Virus record (IMG/VR): IMGVR_UViG_3300029992_000008
Location: 1-45,820 of that record
Direction: 5' to 3' (one strand)
Length of the DNA stretch: 45,820 nucleotides
Source: a virus
Below the pieces are notes generated by a model. That model saw nothing but the letters and a program-made list of their open reading frames with translations, was not told the origin of the DNA and made no database searches. Below are positions 25,743 to 45,530 of the stretch, piece after piece (positions within the stretch are counted from its first letter, which is position 1; each line of letters begins with the position of its first letter). Position numbers and translations under genes: made by a program.

Positions 25743-27593
25743 ATGACGGCACTTGGTGGCATCCCGACATGGGGAAACGTTGGCGACGCGACGGCCATCG
25801 CTGGCCAGATGATGAGCCTCGTCCAGTCGTACGCGGTGGACCTGGAGCAGGCCGCCGCGAACATCGTGCCACCTTCGATTAGCCCGACGTTCCCGACGAT
25901 CCCCTCTCCACCCACGGAGCACAAGGTCGGCGCTCCGGCGCTGCAACAGGTGACCTGGGGCGTTCCGCTACAACCCGCGCCGTTCAGTGGGTCACTGAAT
26001 ATCACGCAATATCTGCCGGGGCCGTTCACGGGGATCGCGCCCACGCTCAACTTCGGTGCCGCGCCACAGTCGTTCAGCGGGCAGACGCCGCCCGCGCCGC
26101 CCATCAATTTCAATTATGAATATCCGACCGTGGCGATCAATCTGCCGGACGTTCCGGCGCTGCTGTCGATCAAAGACCTGCAATTCACGCCCATTGACAT
26201 CCCGACATTCGAGGGCGTGATCCCGCCGTTCACGCTACTCGCGCCGTCCATCGTCGCGTACAATGAGAAGGCGTTCTACACCAGCACGGAGCTATCGCTC
26301 GTGCAGGCCGAGATCGCCAGTGCGCTCACTGACGATACCGATATCGGTCTCAGCGCCAGCGTCCAGCAGGCCATGTGGGACGCCGCGCGAGAGCGTGAGT
26401 TGCGCGCCCAGGCTGACGCCATCGCAGCGCTGGAGCGCGACATCGAGACCTTGGGTTACGCACTGCCGCCCGGTGCGTTCATCGACAGCAGGCTCAAGAT
26501 TTACAATGAGACCCAGTACACGACCGCTGGGCTGTCGCGCGACATCATGGTCAAGCAGGCAGAGCTGCGACTGGAGAACGTGACCAAGTCTCGTGAGCTG
26601 GCGGTGCAGCTCGAAGGCCAGCTGATCACTTACTACAACGCGATCTGCCAGCGGCAGTTCGACGCCGCCAAGTATGTCACTGACGCACAGGTCGCGATCT
26701 ACAACGGTCAGGTGCAGGCTTACGCCGCGCAGATCGAGGGCTATAAGGCGAGCATCGAGGCGTTCAACGCGGCGATCCGGGGGCTGGAGCTTTACATCGA
26801 GCAGCTCAAGGCCGAGGTGTCGTTCGAGCAGACCAAGGCCGAGATCAACACCGCCATCGTGACCCAGTACAAGACCGAGGTGGAGGCGGCCGAGGCCCAG
26901 CTCGAAGTCTACAAGACCCAGGTCGAGATCATCCAGGTCCAGGCGCAGGTCGAAAAGTTGAAGGTCGATACCTTCGCGGCTCAAATCCAGGCGTTCGTGA
27001 GCACAGTGAACGCCTACACCGCCGAGGTGGAAGGCTACAAGGCTGGCGTGGAGGCGCAGACCGCCATTGAGCAGGCATATAAGACGCAGGTGGACGCCTA
27101 CGCCGCCCAGGTGCAGGCGGGGATCGGCGCGGCCAACGCCCTGGTGGCCCAGTTCGAGGGAGAGATCAAGGCTTACGAGGCCCAGCTCGACGGCTACAAG
27201 GCGGCGCTAGGCGCGATGGTGGAGCAGGCCCGCGCCGCGTCGGAGTTCAATCAATCCGCCGTGGCCGAGTATGGCGCGGAGGTGCAGGCCGTCACGTCCT
27301 TCAATCAGGTGCTGACGAACCAGTGGGAAGCCGTGGTGCGTGAGCAGGAGGCGATCACCGAGGTGGCGGTCAAGGCGGCCGAGGCGAACGGCCAGCTCTA
27401 CATCGCGGCCAAGAACCTCGTGATCGAGGCCAACAAGGCGGGCATCCAGACGGCGGCTCAACTTGGCGCGGCGGCGTTGAACGCGGTACACTGGTCCAAC
27501 AACTCGAACTGGTCGCTGTCCGAGAGCGACGTGCTCTCCACCAGCACCAGCAGCAGCACGAGCACCAACACGAACTATAATTCTAGCGTCTAA
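25743..27593 (+). CDS. 616-aa coiled-coil virion protein
   Basis: Residues 1-170 are Pro-rich and extended. Residues about 175-570 are almost continuous helix with Ala/Glu/Gln/Lys heptads and tyrosines recurring about every 14-15 residues ('AQIEGYKASIEAF', 'AQLEVYKTQVEII', 'AEVEGYKAGVEAQ', 'AQLDGYKAALGAM'). The C-terminus is Ser/Thr/Asn-rich. A long rod of this type near the end of a podovirus structural block could be a tail needle, a fibre-base rod or an ejected internal protein. The regular Tyr-containing repeat suggests a helical bundle that packs around a pore. Function inferred. Confidence 0.6.
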   Translation: MTALGGIPTWGNVGDATAIAGQMMSLVQSYAVDLEQAAANIVPPSISPTFPTIPSPPTEHKVGAPALQQVTWGVPLQPAPFSGSLNITQYLPGPFTGIAPTLNFGAAPQSFSGQTPPAPPINFNYEYPTVAINLPDVPALLSIKDLQFTPIDIPTFEGVIPPFTLLAPSIVAYNEKAFYTSTELSLVQAEIASALTDDTDIGLSASVQQAMWDAARERELRAQADAIAALERDIETLGYALPPGAFIDSRLKIYNETQYTTAGLSRDIMVKQAELRLENVTKSRELAVQLEGQLITYYNAICQRQFDAAKYVTDAQVAIYNGQVQAYAAQIEGYKASIEAFNAAIRGLELYIEQLKAEVSFEQTKAEINTAIVTQYKTEVEAAEAQLEVYKTQVEIIQVQAQVEKLKVDTFAAQIQAFVSTVNAYTAEVEGYKAGVEAQTAIEQAYKTQVDAYAAQVQAGIGAANALVAQFEGEIKAYEAQLDGYKAALGAMVEQARAASEFNQSAVAEYGAEVQAVTSFNQVLTNQWEAVVREQEAITEVAVKAAEANGQLYIAAKNLVIEANKAGIQTAAQLGAAALNAVHWSNNSNWSLSESDVLSTSTSSSTSTNTNYNSSV

Positions 27594-35721: not shown

Positions 35722-36135
35722 CTAGTATTTCCGCGTCATTGCGCGAATGCAGTCGAGCATCATCGCGCCGTCCTCGGGCGTGGGCTGCTGGCTCTTGCGC
35801 TGCGCTGCCGTGGCACGATCCAACGCCCCCAGGAACTGTTCGAGACAATGCAGATTGTCGCCGTCCACGACGAACGCGAAGTGATCGTGTGAGGCGATGG
35901 TGGCCAGGAAGCCCTTCTGCGCCACAGTCGGATGGTGCTTGTCGCTGCGCTTGGCTTCGATGACCATGAACATGCCGGTCTTGACCGCGTGGATGTCGCT
36001 GATCCCGGCAGCGGCGTACGCGTTCATGGGGACGTTCCACCAGAACCAGTCGTGCTGTTCGAGCAGCTTCTTGATTTTGTCCTTGACCCCGCTCTCCAGG
36101 GGCGTCTCACGTTTGCGTTTGGGCATCGGGCTCAT
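35722..36135 (-). CDS. VRR-NUC-type nuclease
   Basis: 137 aa from ATG 36135, chosen because AAGG precedes it and because the longer upstream frame reads as a shadow of the RecB-like gene. Residues 14-62 carry the PD-(D/E)xK core: Glu14, then 'AAAGISDIHAVKTGMFMVIEAK' split as Asp47 and Glu60-x-Lys62, followed by a basic 'RSDKHHPTVAQKGFL' helix. VRR-NUC enzymes are structure-specific nucleases, often acting as phage Holliday-junction resolvases. It lies between the SGNH gene and the RecB-like nuclease. Confidence 0.75.
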   Translation of the reverse strand: MSPMPKRKRETPLESGVKDKIKKLLEQHDWFWWNVPMNAYAAAGISDIHAVKTGMFMVIEAKRSDKHHPTVAQKGFLATIASHDHFAFVVDGDNLHCLEQFLGALDRATAAQRKSQQPTPEDGAMMLDCIRAMTRKY

Positions 36136-36172
36136 CGGTGTGTAACCTTCATGGGTTTTGGGAAGTTCAGGC

Positions 36173-36850
36173 TCATTTCGCCCTCTTGGGTCTCCAGAAC
36201 GAGCAATCAGTTGACAGGCACCAACCGTTGCAGAGACCTGACGGACGGGGCTGCCAGACGTCGGACTTGAATGCCTCGGCATATTGCCGCAGGTCGCCTA
36301 TGAACGGCGCCCACAGCATGGGCACTTCATCGCGCGCCCAGACCTTCCGGCTCTCGGTCTGATCCACGGTCCAGTAAAACCGCGCATCGATCAGCTTGAT
36401 GTTCGGGAAGTTGGTGAACATGTGGATAGCGTTTATCATCAGCTGCTCCCACTTCTCCTTCTTCTTCCCGGTCTTATAGTCAACCAGCCGTCCGAGACCG
36501 CTCTCCTTGTCGATCTTCTGATAGTCAGTGACGCCGCGATACCAGGCGTCCGCCGCGAAGTAATGGCACGGCCTTGCGCGGCGGTCGAGCGCGATCTTCG
36601 TCTCAGTGAACGAGATGCCGGGCCACTTCTCCATCTTCAGCATATACTTCTCGTGGACTTGTAGGTCGAGCGGCAGCGGCGTGCGCGTCGCCTGCCGATC
36701 CTCGAACGCCTTGTGGACGTTGCTGCCCCACAACTGCTCTTCACTCTTGACGTCCGGGAAGCGCTTGGTGACCCGCTTGTCGTGGTAGGCCCTCGGGCAG
36801 TTCTTGAAATCTTCGAGCGCGCTATGGCTCCATGGCAGTGGCGTCGTCAC
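36173..36850 (-). CDS. RecB/Cas4-like PD-(D/E)xK exonuclease with Fe-S-type cysteines
   Basis: 225 aa. The start is GTG at 36850, overlapping the XRE stop (GTGA). The N-terminal 'SHSALEDFKNCPRAYH' is the PDDEXK_1 entry motif. His46 ('GSNVHKAF'), Glu83, Asp109 ('GVTDY') and 'LVDYKTGKKKE' (Asp124-Tyr-Lys126) form the nuclease core. Cys18 plus Cys207, Cys211 and Cys216 at the C-terminus match the four-Cys iron-sulfur arrangement of Cas4 and AddB nucleases. Phage homologues work in recombination and end resection. No CRISPR genes are near, so it is a replication/recombination exonuclease, not an adaptation Cas4. Confidence 0.82.
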   Translation of the reverse strand: MTTPLPWSHSALEDFKNCPRAYHDKRVTKRFPDVKSEEQLWGSNVHKAFEDRQATRTPLPLDLQVHEKYMLKMEKWPGISFTETKIALDRRARPCHYFAADAWYRGVTDYQKIDKESGLGRLVDYKTGKKKEKWEQLMINAIHMFTNFPNIKLIDARFYWTVDQTESRKVWARDEVPMLWAPFIGDLRQYAEAFKSDVWQPRPSGLCNGWCLSTDCSFWRPKRAK

Positions 36851-37666: not shown

Positions 37667-38209
37667 TTACAAGGCCACGTTCAGGTGCGCGGCGATCTCC
37701 AGCAACCACAGTGTCTGGTGCCGTGCATCGTCTAGCGCATCGTGTACGACGCCCGCGCGCTTGGGTTCGAGGTTCCTTGGCGCGAGGCTCTTTAGCGTGC
37801 GGAAGTCCCGGTCGCTCCCCCAGTGCCAGGGCTGCTCAAGACCGACCGCCTTGAGCGCGGAGCCCAGGATGACGTTGTCGAACGACACGCCGTTGCCCCA
37901 AACGCAGTGCGGCTCGCTGCCGACCCACTGACAGAACCCATCGAGCGCGGAGACGAGATCAACCTTCTCCAACGCCGTCCACTTGGCGAACGCCTCGGCG
38001 CGATCCGGGTTCAGCCACCAGAGCACTGTGTCCGCATCGAAAGTGCGCTTGAAGGTCGTCTGAACATGTGGGTGGATGCCCACGTGGAACTCGTCATAGA
38101 TCGGAGTGGATGCGTCTAGGTTCAGGTCGAACTTGACTGCGCCGATGGATATGATGACGCCATCCGGCGCTTGGCCCATCGTCTCCAGGTCTATCATGAT
38201 ATGCTTCAT
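37667..38209 (-). CDS. DEDDh 3'-5' exonuclease (DexA / Rv2179c-like)
   Basis: 180 aa. Motif I is 'MIDLETMG' (Asp7, Glu9), motif II is 'NGVSFDNVIL' (Asp111), and motif III is 'HDALDDA' (His156, Asp161). The whole chain is the nuclease fold, without other domains. It resembles phage T4 exonuclease A and the Rv2179c-like family. It could trim ssDNA or RNA ends during replication and recombination. The last gene before the operator gap, it overlaps the start of the preceding small gene's stop region by four bases. Confidence 0.85.
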   Translation of the reverse strand: MKHIMIDLETMGQAPDGVIISIGAVKFDLNLDASTPIYDEFHVGIHPHVQTTFKRTFDADTVLWWLNPDRAEAFAKWTALEKVDLVSALDGFCQWVGSEPHCVWGNGVSFDNVILGSALKAVGLEQPWHWGSDRDFRTLKSLAPRNLEPKRAGVVHDALDDARHQTLWLLEIAAHLNVAL

Positions 38210-39092: not shown

Positions 39093-39377
39093 TCATTTCA
39101 TCCCCGCTCCAGGCGTTCGTGGATAAGATCGGTTCGCGTGCTGGGTTCGAGGCCGCAGGTTGGACAAGTCCGTGGCGGCCCCGCCCTTCACCAGCGGCTT
39201 CTTGTGATCGATGTCGAGCTTCGAGCCCGGCTTGATCATGCCCTTCTTGATCGCCAGCCGACGCGCGCGTGCGCGGATAGCCTCGCCACTGTCATGCCCG
39301 GTGCCCTGCTCACCCCGAGCCTTGGCCGTCTTGGCCTCTTCCTTATAGTTCCGCTCGTACCCCGGACTGCTCGGCAT
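39093..39377 (-). CDS. HNH endonuclease-like protein
   Basis: 94 aa. Lys/Arg-rich N-terminus, then the core 'LDIDHKKPLVKGGA' (Asp57-His58) and 'LSNLRPRTQHANRSYPR' (Asn73, Asn82), the HNH beta-beta-alpha-metal pattern. The CxxC zinc ribbon of many HNH enzymes is absent. It overlaps the 3' end of the DfrB-like gene by 35 bases. Standalone small HNH genes are often homing endonucleases or packaging-associated nickases. Here, within a replication operon, either is possible. Confidence 0.75.
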   Translation of the reverse strand: MPSSPGYERNYKEEAKTAKARGEQGTGHDSGEAIRARARRLAIKKGMIKPGSKLDIDHKKPLVKGGAATDLSNLRPRTQHANRSYPRTPGAGMK

Positions 39378-39591
39378 CTGGTCTCTCCATGGACACGAGC
39401 GCGCTTGCAGGGAACACCTGCACCGCGTTCCGTTCGTAGATGCTTCTCACCGCGTACCCCACCTCGGTCAGGTCGGTACGATACCACCCGCAGATGACGC
39501 CGTGCCAGTCCGCGCCGCTCTTTTTCTTCACGCATTCGCCGTATTTGCGCGGGAGCCACGCCGGCCAGGGGATGAGATCAGGCTCACTCAT
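39343..39591 (-). CDS. R67-type (DfrB-like, type II) dihydrofolate reductase homologue
   Basis: 82 aa (plasmid R67 enzyme: 78). ATG 39591 lies inside the preceding gene's end. Residues 18-65 align without gaps to R67 DHFR as I remember it, about half identical: 'VKKKSGADWHG' (Lys23 = R67 Lys32, Trp29 = Trp38), 'GWYRTDLTEVGYAVRS' and 'AVQVFPASAL' (Gln58 = Gln67). The R67 active-site Ile68 and Tyr69 are Val59 and Phe60 here. R67 is a homotetramer of SH3-like barrels unrelated to FolA-type DHFR and is insensitive to trimethoprim. This phage form may supply tetrahydrofolate for dTMP synthesis, though a non-enzymatic SH3-like role cannot be excluded. Confidence 0.8.
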   Translation of the reverse strand: MSEPDLIPWPAWLPRKYGECVKKKSGADWHGVICGWYRTDLTEVGYAVRSIYERNAVQVFPASALVSMERPDAEQSGVRAEL

Positions 39592-39787
39592 CGGCGTCAG
39601 CCTTCGCTTCCTCGGGCGCTTCGAGCCTGACCAGCTTGTAGCCCAGCTCCCGGAACCGCGCCTTGGAGTACGCCTCAGTGAACGTGCCGTACTCACTCTT
39701 CATGGTGATCGTATTGTCAGCGTTCTGACTGAGCACCTCGAACCTCGTGCCCGTCGCGATATTCTCGAAGTACAGTTTGATCGCCAT
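39584..39787 (-). CDS. 67-aa phage protein
   Basis: ATG 39787 with GAGGA upstream is preferred to the codon at 39814, which would lie inside the polymerase gene. Sequence starts 'MAIKLYFENIATGTRFEVLS', a small beta-rich fold with an acidic C-terminus ('EAPEEAKADADE'). Its stop overlaps the start of the DfrB-like gene by eight bases, so the two are co-translated. The function is unknown. Confidence 0.6.
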   Translation of the reverse strand: MAIKLYFENIATGTRFEVLSQNADNTITMKSEYGTFTEAYSKARFRELGYKLVRLEAPEEAKADADE

Positions 39788-39797
39788 TGATTTGTCC

Positions 39798-41690
39798 TCA
39801 CTTCTCGAAGTCATAGTCCCTCAGTCCGCCCCACGTCGGACCAATCTTGCAGTCCCATGGCATGGGTATCGGCAGATCAATGCCCCATGCCTTCTTGTAT
39901 GGGAGGTTGTCGAGCATGTGCTTGATCGTCACAGCCGCCTCCTTCGTCTTGGTCTTGGGCACCTGTAAGTAGATGCCGTCATGCAAGTCCCATTTAAACC
40001 TCGCGCCGATGGACCAGACGTAGTCCTTGATCACCATCAAGGCCAGATACTTCTGATCCGCGCCGGTCCCCTGCACCGGGTAATTGATCATCGTCGAGCC
40101 CATACTCCAGCCCATGGCGCCCCAGTCACCCATGACCTTGACGCGCCGACCCGCTAGTGTCTCGGCATAGCCGAGTTTCTTCCCGAGTGCGATCTGGGCT
40201 TGCCAATATTTCGGAACCTCCCGGTACGTGCGTTGATACACCACATGTATGAGCTTAGCTTGTGGCAGCTGCATTGGCAAGTTATATTGTACCCGAGCTA
40301 CCGTGCGCAACTTAGGTGCGGATGTTCGGTATTGGAGTGACAGGTTGGCGACCTTACCCAGATATCTGTCCCACCACGCCTTGCTCTCCTTGACTTTAGC
40401 CGCGACCATGAGGGGCTTATAGTCCTGGTCAGTGACCCTTGCCGCCATGAACGCGTGCGCGTCCTCGCCGGGCATGCACAGCTGCATCATGACCGTGTCG
40501 CCGGTCTTGACCGCCATCCAGCGGAACTCCTGGCCGGCAGCGTCGAACTCCATGAGATCGTACTCCGGGGGCACCGTGACGATCTTGCGGAACTTGGCCT
40601 CACGCTTCTCCTGGTGCAGCGCGAACCCGATCTGGCGTTCGTCCTTGTTCTTGCCCTGCTTCGAGCTGTATGTCAGCCGGCCCGAGTATGTGCCGAACAC
40701 GCGAGCCAGGGGGTGCGCCCGGCCGTCGCCGTTGTATGCCACGCTCGCCAACGGGGCGTCCGCGAACTTGGTGCGGTTGTTGAGCGCCTCGCGGTAGATG
40801 CGCAGCGTCCTCACCTTTGGGTCGATGAACGACAGTTCGTGCAGCACTTCCTTATCCGTGGACCGGGATACCATGCCGCTCTTTTTGCCCGTGTTGTGCT
40901 TGAGCACGGGTAGCTGCCACTGGTCAAACATCAAGGCTGCCAGTTTCTTAGGTGACCGGATAACTTCCTCGGTGACCCCAAACCACTGGAGCTTGATCAG
41001 CGCGTCGTCTGCCTCCTTGCTAAGGTCCAGCACCAAGTTCTGGCAGGCTAGGGTGTCGATCAGCAGCCCGTCCAGATTTGCCAGGGCCGCCAGAGGCAAG
41101 CATTCGGCCTCGATCAGCGCCGACTTGAGCTGACGCGGCGTCAGCAGCGGCCAGAGCTTCTTGGTGATCCGCAGCGTGAAGATGTTGTCACGGACGTTGT
41201 ATTCGTGCAGCTTGGCGCGCGCCGTGGGCGACGGGTCGTGATAATCGATGTCTTCCTCGTAGCCGGCTTGGTCAGGGATGAACGTCGCCACGGCGGGCTT
41301 GAGCCCGAACGAGCGCTTGTTCGCGCGGGTCATCTCGTACTCCGGCTCGACCTCCAGGTGCCGGTAGATCAGCATGCCATCGAGCCAGCGCAGCCCCATG
41401 ATCTCGTCCTCGAACCCGTAGGCGGCCAGGACGCTCAGATCGAACACGGTGTTCCACCCCACGCCGCGCCGCGCCTGGGACTTCAGGAAGGCCAGGAACC
41501 GCGCCATCATGGGTCGGTCAGGGTTGAGGCCGCCGTCCACATGGAGCTCGCCGCCCTCGGGCCAGACCCACACCAGGGACGTCGCCCAGAAGTCGCCAGA
41601 CTTGAGCCGCCACGGCTGGAGCGCATACTCCGGGATCGTGCCTGATGTCTCAAAGTCAAACGCGCAGACTTTGTCGTCATCCCAGATCAT
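39798..41690 (-). CDS. Family A DNA polymerase with 3'-5' exonuclease domain
   Basis: 630 aa. Exonuclease motifs: 'FDFETSG' (Asp12, Glu14), 'GWNTVFD' (Asn80, Asp84) and 'YNVRD' (Tyr164, Asp168). Polymerase motif A is 'EFDAAGQEFR' (Asp383, Glu388, Arg390). Motif B is 'RYLGKVANLSLQYR' (Arg442, Lys446, Leu450, Tyr454). 'NYPVQGTGADQ' follows (536-546), and motif C is 'LHDG' (His570, Asp571). The residue equivalent to E. coli Phe762 is Leu450, and the motif C Glu is Gly572. No 5'-3' exonuclease domain, as usual for phage enzymes. It is the replicative polymerase of this phage. Confidence 0.95.
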   Translation of the reverse strand: MIWDDDKVCAFDFETSGTIPEYALQPWRLKSGDFWATSLVWVWPEGGELHVDGGLNPDRPMMARFLAFLKSQARRGVGWNTVFDLSVLAAYGFEDEIMGLRWLDGMLIYRHLEVEPEYEMTRANKRSFGLKPAVATFIPDQAGYEEDIDYHDPSPTARAKLHEYNVRDNIFTLRITKKLWPLLTPRQLKSALIEAECLPLAALANLDGLLIDTLACQNLVLDLSKEADDALIKLQWFGVTEEVIRSPKKLAALMFDQWQLPVLKHNTGKKSGMVSRSTDKEVLHELSFIDPKVRTLRIYREALNNRTKFADAPLASVAYNGDGRAHPLARVFGTYSGRLTYSSKQGKNKDERQIGFALHQEKREAKFRKIVTVPPEYDLMEFDAAGQEFRWMAVKTGDTVMMQLCMPGEDAHAFMAARVTDQDYKPLMVAAKVKESKAWWDRYLGKVANLSLQYRTSAPKLRTVARVQYNLPMQLPQAKLIHVVYQRTYREVPKYWQAQIALGKKLGYAETLAGRRVKVMGDWGAMGWSMGSTMINYPVQGTGADQKYLALMVIKDYVWSIGARFKWDLHDGIYLQVPKTKTKEAAVTIKHMLDNLPYKKAWGIDLPIPMPWDCKIGPTWGGLRDYDFEK

Positions 41691-44154: not shown

Positions 44155-45261
44155 CTAGGTGAGCCTGATCACCCGTCCAATCGGCACCCGCTGGGAGGTA
44201 TTGCACGCGACGATCAGATTGTACGGGACGTTCTTCGGCCAAGGTGTGTATCCATCCGTGATTAAGATGACGATCTCGGGGTCGTATTTCTCGACGTACT
44301 TGAGGGGCTTGCGCATGTCCGTGCCGCCGAGCCCTTTGGGGTGGAGCTTGACTGGCTCGCCGGGCTCGAACTCTTCCTCGTGGGACACCTCCGTGTCATC
44401 GGCCCAGACCACGCGGGTCAGTGACGGTTTGACCTGCTCCAGCACATAGTTCACCTCGGCCTCGATCTGCGCGAAGTATCCCGACATCGAGCCCGAGCTG
44501 TCGCCGATGATCACCAACTCCCCCATGCCCTCGCTATGCCGCGTGGGTAGTATCACGTCCTCGAAGCGCCGGTTGCGCCGCGCCCAGGTCTCATCCAGTT
44601 TCATGACCTGGGTCATATACTCCTGGAGTAGTTGCTGCCAGGGCGCGGGCGGGTTGAGCACACCGTTCACGATGGCATCGAGACCCGCAGGCATTTGGCC
44701 CATCATCTTCGCCGCCGCCGCTGCCTGGGCCACCTGTTGCTGGATGGCGCGCTCGATCTGCGCCACCGCCGCTGGGTCACCTAGGTCTTCGGGATCGCGC
44801 AGGTCGCCGCCGAAGCCGCCGTCAATCGGGATGTCGCCCTCGTTGCCCTTCTGCTTCTCGTCGTCGTCGATGATCATGTAGATTTGTTCCGCGCTCATGC
44901 CCTCGAACTTGTGGTCATGATAACAGCTCGGCCACAGTTTGAAGCCGCCCTTCTCCATGATCAGATTGATCGCGTGGTCGCAGGCGATGTTCCACATGTG
45001 TGGCTTGCGACCGCCGCGCCGCAGGCCGTGCTTGAACATCTTATGCATCACCTCGTGGACGAGGACGAACATCACCGTGTCGGTATCCAGGCTGGCGATG
45101 AACTTCTCATTGTAGAAGATGCTCTTCATGTCAGTCGCCGCCGTGGGGAGCGTGTTGTCCACAATGAACGGCGTGTTGAGCACCAGCGTCGCGTAGAACA
45201 CATGCTTGATCAGCAGTTGTCCACGCGCTTTGCTCATAGGTGTCATTACGGTACTGGTCAT
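44155..45261 (-). CDS. VWA protein with N-terminal zinc metallopeptidase-like domain (DUF2201-like)
   Basis: 368 aa. ATG 45261 shares a base with the preceding stop (TGATG), with GGGAG upstream. Residues about 15-110 are a metallopeptidase-like domain: 'FVLVHEVMHKMFKHG' (HEVMH near 69-73) and 'NIACDHAIN' (third ligand candidate). The C-terminal half is a von Willebrand A domain with MIDAS 'DSSGSMS' near 254-260, 'GLGGTDMRKP' and 'ILITDGYT'. This is the DUF2201-like architecture that works with MoxR-type AAA+ ATPases. In phages the role is unknown; metal-dependent protein remodelling is plausible. Confidence 0.82.
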   Translation of the reverse strand: MTSTVMTPMSKARGQLLIKHVFYATLVLNTPFIVDNTLPTAATDMKSIFYNEKFIASLDTDTVMFVLVHEVMHKMFKHGLRRGGRKPHMWNIACDHAINLIMEKGGFKLWPSCYHDHKFEGMSAEQIYMIIDDDEKQKGNEGDIPIDGGFGGDLRDPEDLGDPAAVAQIERAIQQQVAQAAAAAKMMGQMPAGLDAIVNGVLNPPAPWQQLLQEYMTQVMKLDETWARRNRRFEDVILPTRHSEGMGELVIIGDSSGSMSGYFAQIEAEVNYVLEQVKPSLTRVVWADDTEVSHEEEFEPGEPVKLHPKGLGGTDMRKPLKYVEKYDPEIVILITDGYTPWPKNVPYNLIVACNTSQRVPIGRVIRLT

Positions 45262-45530
45262 CACTCTTCTCCCTCGTCAATCGCTCGTGAACCACGCACC
45301 AATCTGCGAGGCATCTTGTTCATGTCTCTTGCGGCCCAGCCTGGGGGATACGCAAGCACGTTGGCGGCGAGCAGCGCCCTGATCTCGCGGTCTATACTCT
45401 GTTCCCCGCGCCGCCACCCAAGTTCTCGCATGTACCCATCCTCGCTTGGGACAGGACCGTAGGTCAAGCCCCCCATGAGCGCCGTGACAAACGCCACGGA
45501 CTCATCGTCAGTCAGTTGATATTTCGCCAT
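45261..45530 (-). CDS. 89-aa phage protein, paralogue of the next upstream small gene
   Basis: Begins 'MAKYQLTDDESVAFVTALMGG'. The N-terminus closely resembles that of the 47-aa product just upstream ('IHLTDEELKVLMAALMGH'), so the two probably arose by duplication. The remainder is basic. No function is recognised. It is overlapped at its start by the end of the 47-aa gene, by 23 bases, and at its end by the VWA start. Confidence 0.62.
   Translation of the reverse strand: MAKYQLTDDESVAFVTALMGGLTYGPVPSEDGYMRELGWRRGEQSIDREIRALLAANVLAYPPGWAARDMNKMPRRLVRGSRAIDEGEE

Follow-up and report, generated by a model that had tools for sequence, protein, structure and literature searches.

A diverged member of the R67 dihydrofolate reductase superfamily inserted in the DNA-replication gene run of a phage

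Results

The R67-like gene and its neighbors

The window analyzed here is the whole stretch of 45,820 nucleotides of the IMG/VR virus record IMGVR_UViG_3300029992_000008. A short gene with similarity to the type II dihydrofolate reductase (DHFR) R67 is located on its minus strand, in a run of genes that encode a family A DNA polymerase, two exonucleases, and an endonuclease. The features of this run are as follows:

35722-36282, minus strand: endonuclease or Holliday-junction-resolvase-like protein (matches below the Pfam cut-offs)
36173-36850, minus strand: PD-(D/E)XK (PDDEXK_1) exonuclease
37667-38209, minus strand: Rv2179c-like 3'-5' exonuclease
39093-39377, minus strand: HNH-like gene downstream of the R67-like gene, product of 94 aa (HNH match below the Pfam cut-off; phrog_4590; conserved in relatives)
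39343-39591, minus strand: R67-like gene, product P0001, 82 aa, with an SH3-like core at about residues 17-66
39584-39814, minus strand: p76 gene, encoding a small, conserved beta protein; the product has 76 aa, or 67 aa if translation starts at the ATG at 39787
39798-41690, minus strand: family A DNA polymerase of 630 aa, the query with which relatives of the window phage were sought

On the plus strand of 39343-39591, the second codon is a stop; the open reading frame is on the minus strand, and a simple codon-based gene caller reproduced its start and stop. The gene overlaps the upstream p76 gene by 8 nt and the downstream HNH gene by 35 nt, and the disordered C-terminal tail of P0001 is read out of frame from the start of the HNH gene. 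Its codon use resembles that of the neighbors (GC3 of 0.76 versus 0.77-0.83). The setting in a replication operon, with overlaps on both sides, had been proposed in a preliminary description of this DNA and was confirmed.

The p76 gene directly follows the DNA polymerase gene in the group to which the window phage belongs. Its product carries the consensus stretch GxFTEPYxKERFKxLGY, and its predicted fold has five strands and one helix. Neither Pfam nor PHROG returned a match for p76, and the fold search gave no convincing one; the idea that p76 is another R67-like protein or a known SH3 protein was rejected on this basis.

Homology and predicted fold

P0001 matched the Pfam family DHFR_2 (PF06442, the R67 family) with an E-value of 4.9e-14 and 52.4 bits, above the gathering cut-off of 25. 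A phmmer search aligned it to R67 from the PDB over residues 17-66 without gaps (E 6.9e-12), and BLASTP against DfrB1 gave an ungapped match with 27 of 57 residues identical. Over residues 17-66, the ungapped identity to DfrB1 is 26 of 50; this core identity of 52% ties with the lowest value among the viral cores. The E-values exclude a chance match to R67.

An AlphaFold2 model of the P0001 monomer was built with 46 relatives, and the core of this monomer has a pLDDT above 90. In Foldseek, the predicted monomer matched seven R67 entries with an rmsd of 0.5-0.8 A and E-values of about 3e-6, compared with 0.036 for the next match; the structure Z was 11.2-11.8 for R67 versus 7.4 for the next fold. 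The predicted monomer has the SH3-like fold of the R67 protomer. R67 was the top match in both the profile and the fold searches, and the other SH3, KOW, and Tudor matches were far below it; a general SH3-like family in place of R67 was rejected, and the outcome named as refuting in the preliminary description, a match to such a family only, did not occur.

P0001 is a diverged member of the R67 (DHFR_2) superfamily, and at the superfamily level the earlier claim of a gap-free R67 homolog with about half of its residues identical was borne out. The narrower DfrB label stood in part: the R67-superfamily profile and the fold agree with it, but the NCBIfam model for DfrB (NF000331) gave 57.1 bits, short of the curated cut-off of 137, and P0001 does not contain the VQIY motif. 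We did not file P0001 as a DfrB resistance enzyme because it fell below the NCBI cut-off, its motif and the Glu58 position have diverged, and it sits on a long branch.

Active-site residues

The following codons were located through the alignment to R67:

39412-39423, minus strand: pore motif Val57-Gln58-Val59-Phe60 (VQVF), equivalent to VQIY 66-69 of R67 and preceded by Ala56 in place of Ser65
39445-39447, minus strand: Arg49, which is Glu58 in relatives
39505-39507, minus strand: Trp29, equivalent to Trp38 (dimer-dimer interface in R67)
39523-39525, minus strand: Lys23, equivalent to Lys32, which in R67 binds the ligands at their negative charges

Lys23 thus supplies the lysine that DfrB proteins require for ligand binding, and Trp29 and Trp36 (Trp38 and Trp45 in R67) supply the tryptophans required for assembly. 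Val57 and Gln58 correspond to Val66 and Gln67, so that the equivalents of Lys32, Trp38, and Gln67 listed in the preliminary description are all in place; Pro70 has an equivalent as well. The required VQIY tetrad (66-69) is replaced by VQVF, with Val59 for Ile68 and Phe60 for Tyr69. P0001 further differs from R67/DfrB1 in Ala for Ser65, Arg for Glu58, Glu for His62, and in its N- and C-terminal tails.

P0001 was compared to 165 distinct cores, 119 of them viral and 46 bacterial or from plasmids. Positions 65-70 are SVQIYP in 113 of the viral cores, PVQIYP and SVQLYP in two each, and SVQVWP and SMQIYP in one each, which suggests that the pore is strongly constrained. The equivalents of Lys32 and Trp38 are K and W in 118 of the 118 viral cores (for Lys32, those with that column filled), and Gln67 is present in every viral core compared. 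Glu58 is kept in 98% of the viral cores and in all bacterial ones. The motif statistics are biased, in that the scan patterns and rankings draw partly on VQIY; SVQIYP was still found in 54 of 58 viral cores that matched a pattern away from the motif. The pattern used on bacterial genomes demanded VQIYP, and the bacterial motif counts are therefore uninformative.

AVQVFP is absent from all 165 other distinct cores compared, and a scan ranked on similarity to P0001 found no second VQVF relative. The replacement of VQIY by VQVF had been noted before; it proved to be unique among the relatives compared and to be accompanied by the loss of Glu58. The predicted pore motif of P0001, taken together with the exchange of Glu58 for Arg, is unlike that of any of the 119 viral cores. 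In a tree of 98 cores (61 columns), the end branch of P0001 is the longest, at 1.1 versus a median of 0.18. Naming the origin of P0001 from this tree was dropped, given only 61 columns and a long branch with no firm placement.

Distribution among related phages

The DNA polymerase alone as scan query returned one relative, whereas a two-sequence alignment retrieved 31 IMG/VR contigs. Several of these keep the gene order polymerase, p76, HNH, exonucleases. The R67-like gene is absent, both at the locus and in the whole record, from all 31 polymerase-related contigs; the same search detected the window itself as a positive control. It is present in one of 32 phages with a related polymerase, that of the window. 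In the closest relative, L097, whose polymerase is 62% identical, the p76 stop codon and the HNH start codon (ATG) overlap, which constitutes an empty site, and in the window the R67-like gene fills exactly this junction. The R67-like gene is a lineage-specific insert, for which a single gain is the simplest reading and repeated loss the alternative. A resident metabolic role, as argued earlier from the position of the gene, is not supported; the absence of the gene from all 31 related phages and from the exact junction in the closest one contradicts it.

In several relatives (L107, L110, L118, and L119), the polymerase match is split in two near query residues 445-470. The pieces are about 740-1000 bp apart, a spacing that would fit an inserted intron, intein, or homing endonuclease gene.

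R67 relatives in phages

Phage-borne DfrB is already published and not new here. Four freshwater viral contigs with DfrB homologs (PMC7265639) and eight lytic-phage DfrB candidates (PMC12466917) have been listed, and the phage homologs DfrB-H3 and DfrB-H4 were assayed in 2023: trimethoprim resistance was seen with DfrB-H4 but not with DfrB-H3, for which no expression was visible (PMC9835603). We found R67 relatives in 25 INPHARED records, several of them annotated as R67 or dihydrofolate reductase, and in IMG/VR 272 relatives by one query and 152 by another, in overlapping sets. The earlier suggestion that phages are a reservoir of the family agrees with these counts. Since an exact-peptide scan of IMG/VR with P0001 returned zero relatives, no close ortholog is present in this database; a scan ranked by similarity to P0001 found relatives of at most 58% identity. 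Among 84,980 bacterial and archaeal genomes, one per species, a pattern requiring VQIYP gave 47 loci; viral and bacterial loci were counted with different patterns, and the numbers do not compare rates.

In about half of 80 viral loci, the domain stands alone in a protein of at most 90 aa; in the others it lies within longer, otherwise unrelated accessory proteins. One of these (L073:522-1193) is fused to DUF3850/ASCH, and another single protein (L049:2045-2725) combines a sub-threshold Lar restriction-alleviation match with the DfrB domain. The direct neighbors of other DfrB genes are mixed and include two Lar proteins, one Acb1, DNA methyltransferases, and HNH proteins; these families were counted without a background of random phage genes and are a lead only. 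In Rhizobium phage N38 (L012:2905-3228), the R67-like open reading frame is unannotated, and an HTH protein in a different frame is annotated over part of it.

Among known systems, DfrB-H3 (Pseudomonas phage) and DfrB-H4 (Vibrio phage) are, like P0001, phage DfrB domains with no obvious resistance context; they retain VQIY and form part of longer proteins, whereas P0001 is free-standing with VQVF (PMC9835603). The R67 gene of Podoviridae sp. ctOsX528 (MW202697) is also small and free-standing and adjoins the DNA polymerase gene downstream. In contrast to the window's gene, it keeps GSVQIYP and has no p76 or HNH neighbors, and a class II ribonucleotide reductase is annotated in its phage.

Folate genes in phages that carry DfrB

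FolA-type phage DHFR (PF00186, as in T4 frd), which is paired with ThyA, has an unrelated fold but would carry out the same reaction. We searched for it together with the thymidylate synthases ThyA and ThyX. None of the three was found in the window contig, which is linear and may be incomplete, or in 13 relatives. Support of dTMP synthesis during replication, as the preliminary description had it, is thus unproven for this genome.

Across 51 DfrB-carrying phage records, the window included, ThyX and FolA were found in none, and a ThyA-family match was found in eight, two of which were partial and low-scoring. Eight further DfrB records contained ThyA in three cases and FolA in none. A recognizable ThyA is therefore missing from 48 of the 59 records tested, and none of the 11 phages with both ThyA and DfrB has FolA. 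ThyA phages that do not carry DfrB have FolA in 9 of 12 INPHARED records, a set hand-picked for diversity, and in 14 of 37 IMG/VR records (23 of 49 together). Fisher's test gave p values of 0.004 (pooled, 0 of 11 versus 23 of 49), 0.02 (IMG/VR comparison set only), and 0.08 (IMG/VR on both sides), with small numbers, related phages counted apart, and contigs that are possibly fragments. Within the Pootjesviridae, thyA adjoins folA in P10VF (L268), which has no DfrB, and phiM9 (L007) has ThyA and DfrB in separate places, with no FolA found; the two phages thus appear to rely on DHFRs that are unrelated to each other. These observations suggest that DfrB can replace FolA in ThyA-carrying phages, and a DHFR role of DfrB is plausible in some phages.

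Discussion

R67/DfrB1 is a type II DHFR, familiar from hospitals as a trimethoprim-resistance enzyme of plasmids and integrons. The origin and native role of DfrB are open, and it has no relatives among characterized proteins (PMC9835603, PMC9774602). Our survey suggests that many members of the family reside in phages. No ThyA phage was found to combine DfrB with FolA, which makes the native role accessible to experiment, and P0001 offers a natural test of how far the R67 pore can drift.

Our preferred reading, to which we give an even chance, is that P0001 may be an accessory reductase that depends on NADPH and works as a homotetramer, probably a DHFR of weakened activity. The accessory gene would have entered a DNA-replication operon at the junction of two conserved genes. 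By analogy to R67, the diverged protomers would assemble into a D2 homotetramer with one central pore, which would take up NADPH and dihydrofolate, held by Lys23 and the Val57-Phe60 strand. Hydride transfer by proximity would then regenerate tetrahydrofolate in the infected cell, working with a host thymidylate synthase; the host enzyme would be needed because none was found in the contig. In R67 itself, the hydride moves by proximity with no catalytic acid (PMC9835603). With Phe in place of Tyr69, Val in place of Ile68, and Ala in place of Ser65, the VQVF pore is probably a weaker binder of both ligands than R67, an expectation that follows from the exchange of Tyr69 for Phe, and the activity would therefore be reduced, not abolished. 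In a 2001 study by Strader et al., the Y69F change in R67 reportedly raises the Km about 8-fold for dihydrofolate and about 20-fold for NADPH; our literature search did not find these kinetics.

P0001 is likely to be catalytically active. Of five DfrB homologs tested in E. coli, four, including one encoded by a Vibrio phage, made the cells resistant to trimethoprim, dihydrofolate reduction kinetics were shown for a distant bacterial homolog, and engineered DfrB1 with three or four VQIY residues changed is cited as functional (PMC9835603). Counting against an active P0001, the Y69L change in DfrB1 abolished resistance and cut activity (PMC9835603). A role as DHFR is also at odds with the lack of ThyA, ThyX, and FolA in the contig, the altered motif and Glu58 position, the longest branch in the tree, and, for the family, the 48 of 59 DfrB records in which ThyA is missing and the 51 of 51 in which ThyX is.

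The missing synthases would also fit a pore that serves another ligand during infection, such as a nucleotide, a pterin, an NAD-like molecule, or possibly a defense signal. Reduction would then be a by-product of NADPH and folate being bound side by side, and phage accessory proteins would use the domain as a general module for binding small molecules. DfrB reductase activity has been termed possibly adventitious (PMC9835603), about half of the 80 loci embed the domain in longer accessory proteins, and its neighbors include Lar, Acb1, methyltransferase, and HNH proteins. However, the neighbor families have no background comparison, and the absence of FolA from phages with both ThyA and DfrB points to folate. 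To our knowledge, folate and NADPH are the only known ligands. We regard this explanation as rather doubtful. An improbable extension of it would place a phage pore protein for nucleotide- or folate-like molecules, for example a defense signal, at the root of the R67 fold; the DHFR by-product would later have been selected by trimethoprim, and VQVF would be a retuned pore.

Alternatively, P0001 may have lost or changed its catalysis. It would then be a passenger, in decay or put to another use, with the SH3-like fold retained and without useful reductase activity. Its private motif, the change of Glu58 to Arg, the longest end branch, and its status as a lineage-specific insert would fit, as would the loss of resistance in VQIL variants of DfrB1 and DfrB-H5 (PMC9835603). 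On the other hand, the reading frame is intact with neighbor-like codon use, the equivalents of Lys32, Trp38, Trp45, Val66, and Gln67 and glycines 27, 35, 40, 44, and 54 are retained, and Tyr69 to Phe is the mildest possible change; we consider this outcome unlikely. Homology to DfrB1-type genes would also be expected if antibiotic selection had led the phage to take up a trimethoprim-resistance gene from a plasmid or integron. This is highly improbable, given a core identity to DfrB1 of 52%, 57 of the 137 bits at the NCBI cut-off, numerous phage relatives, and no integron, transposase, or other resistance gene noticed alongside.

Other features of the window

A search for RNA elements gave zero matches at the gathering threshold. 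A tRNA-Pro(cgg) of 95 nt was predicted at 27462-27556 on the minus strand, in the structural-gene region; it is antisense to a 616-aa open reading frame and probably a false positive. In the same early gene run as the R67-like gene, 44155-45264 on the minus strand encodes a DUF2201 metallopeptidase-like and VWA-like protein, for which the PHROGs family name, HNH endonuclease, is at odds with the Pfam match.
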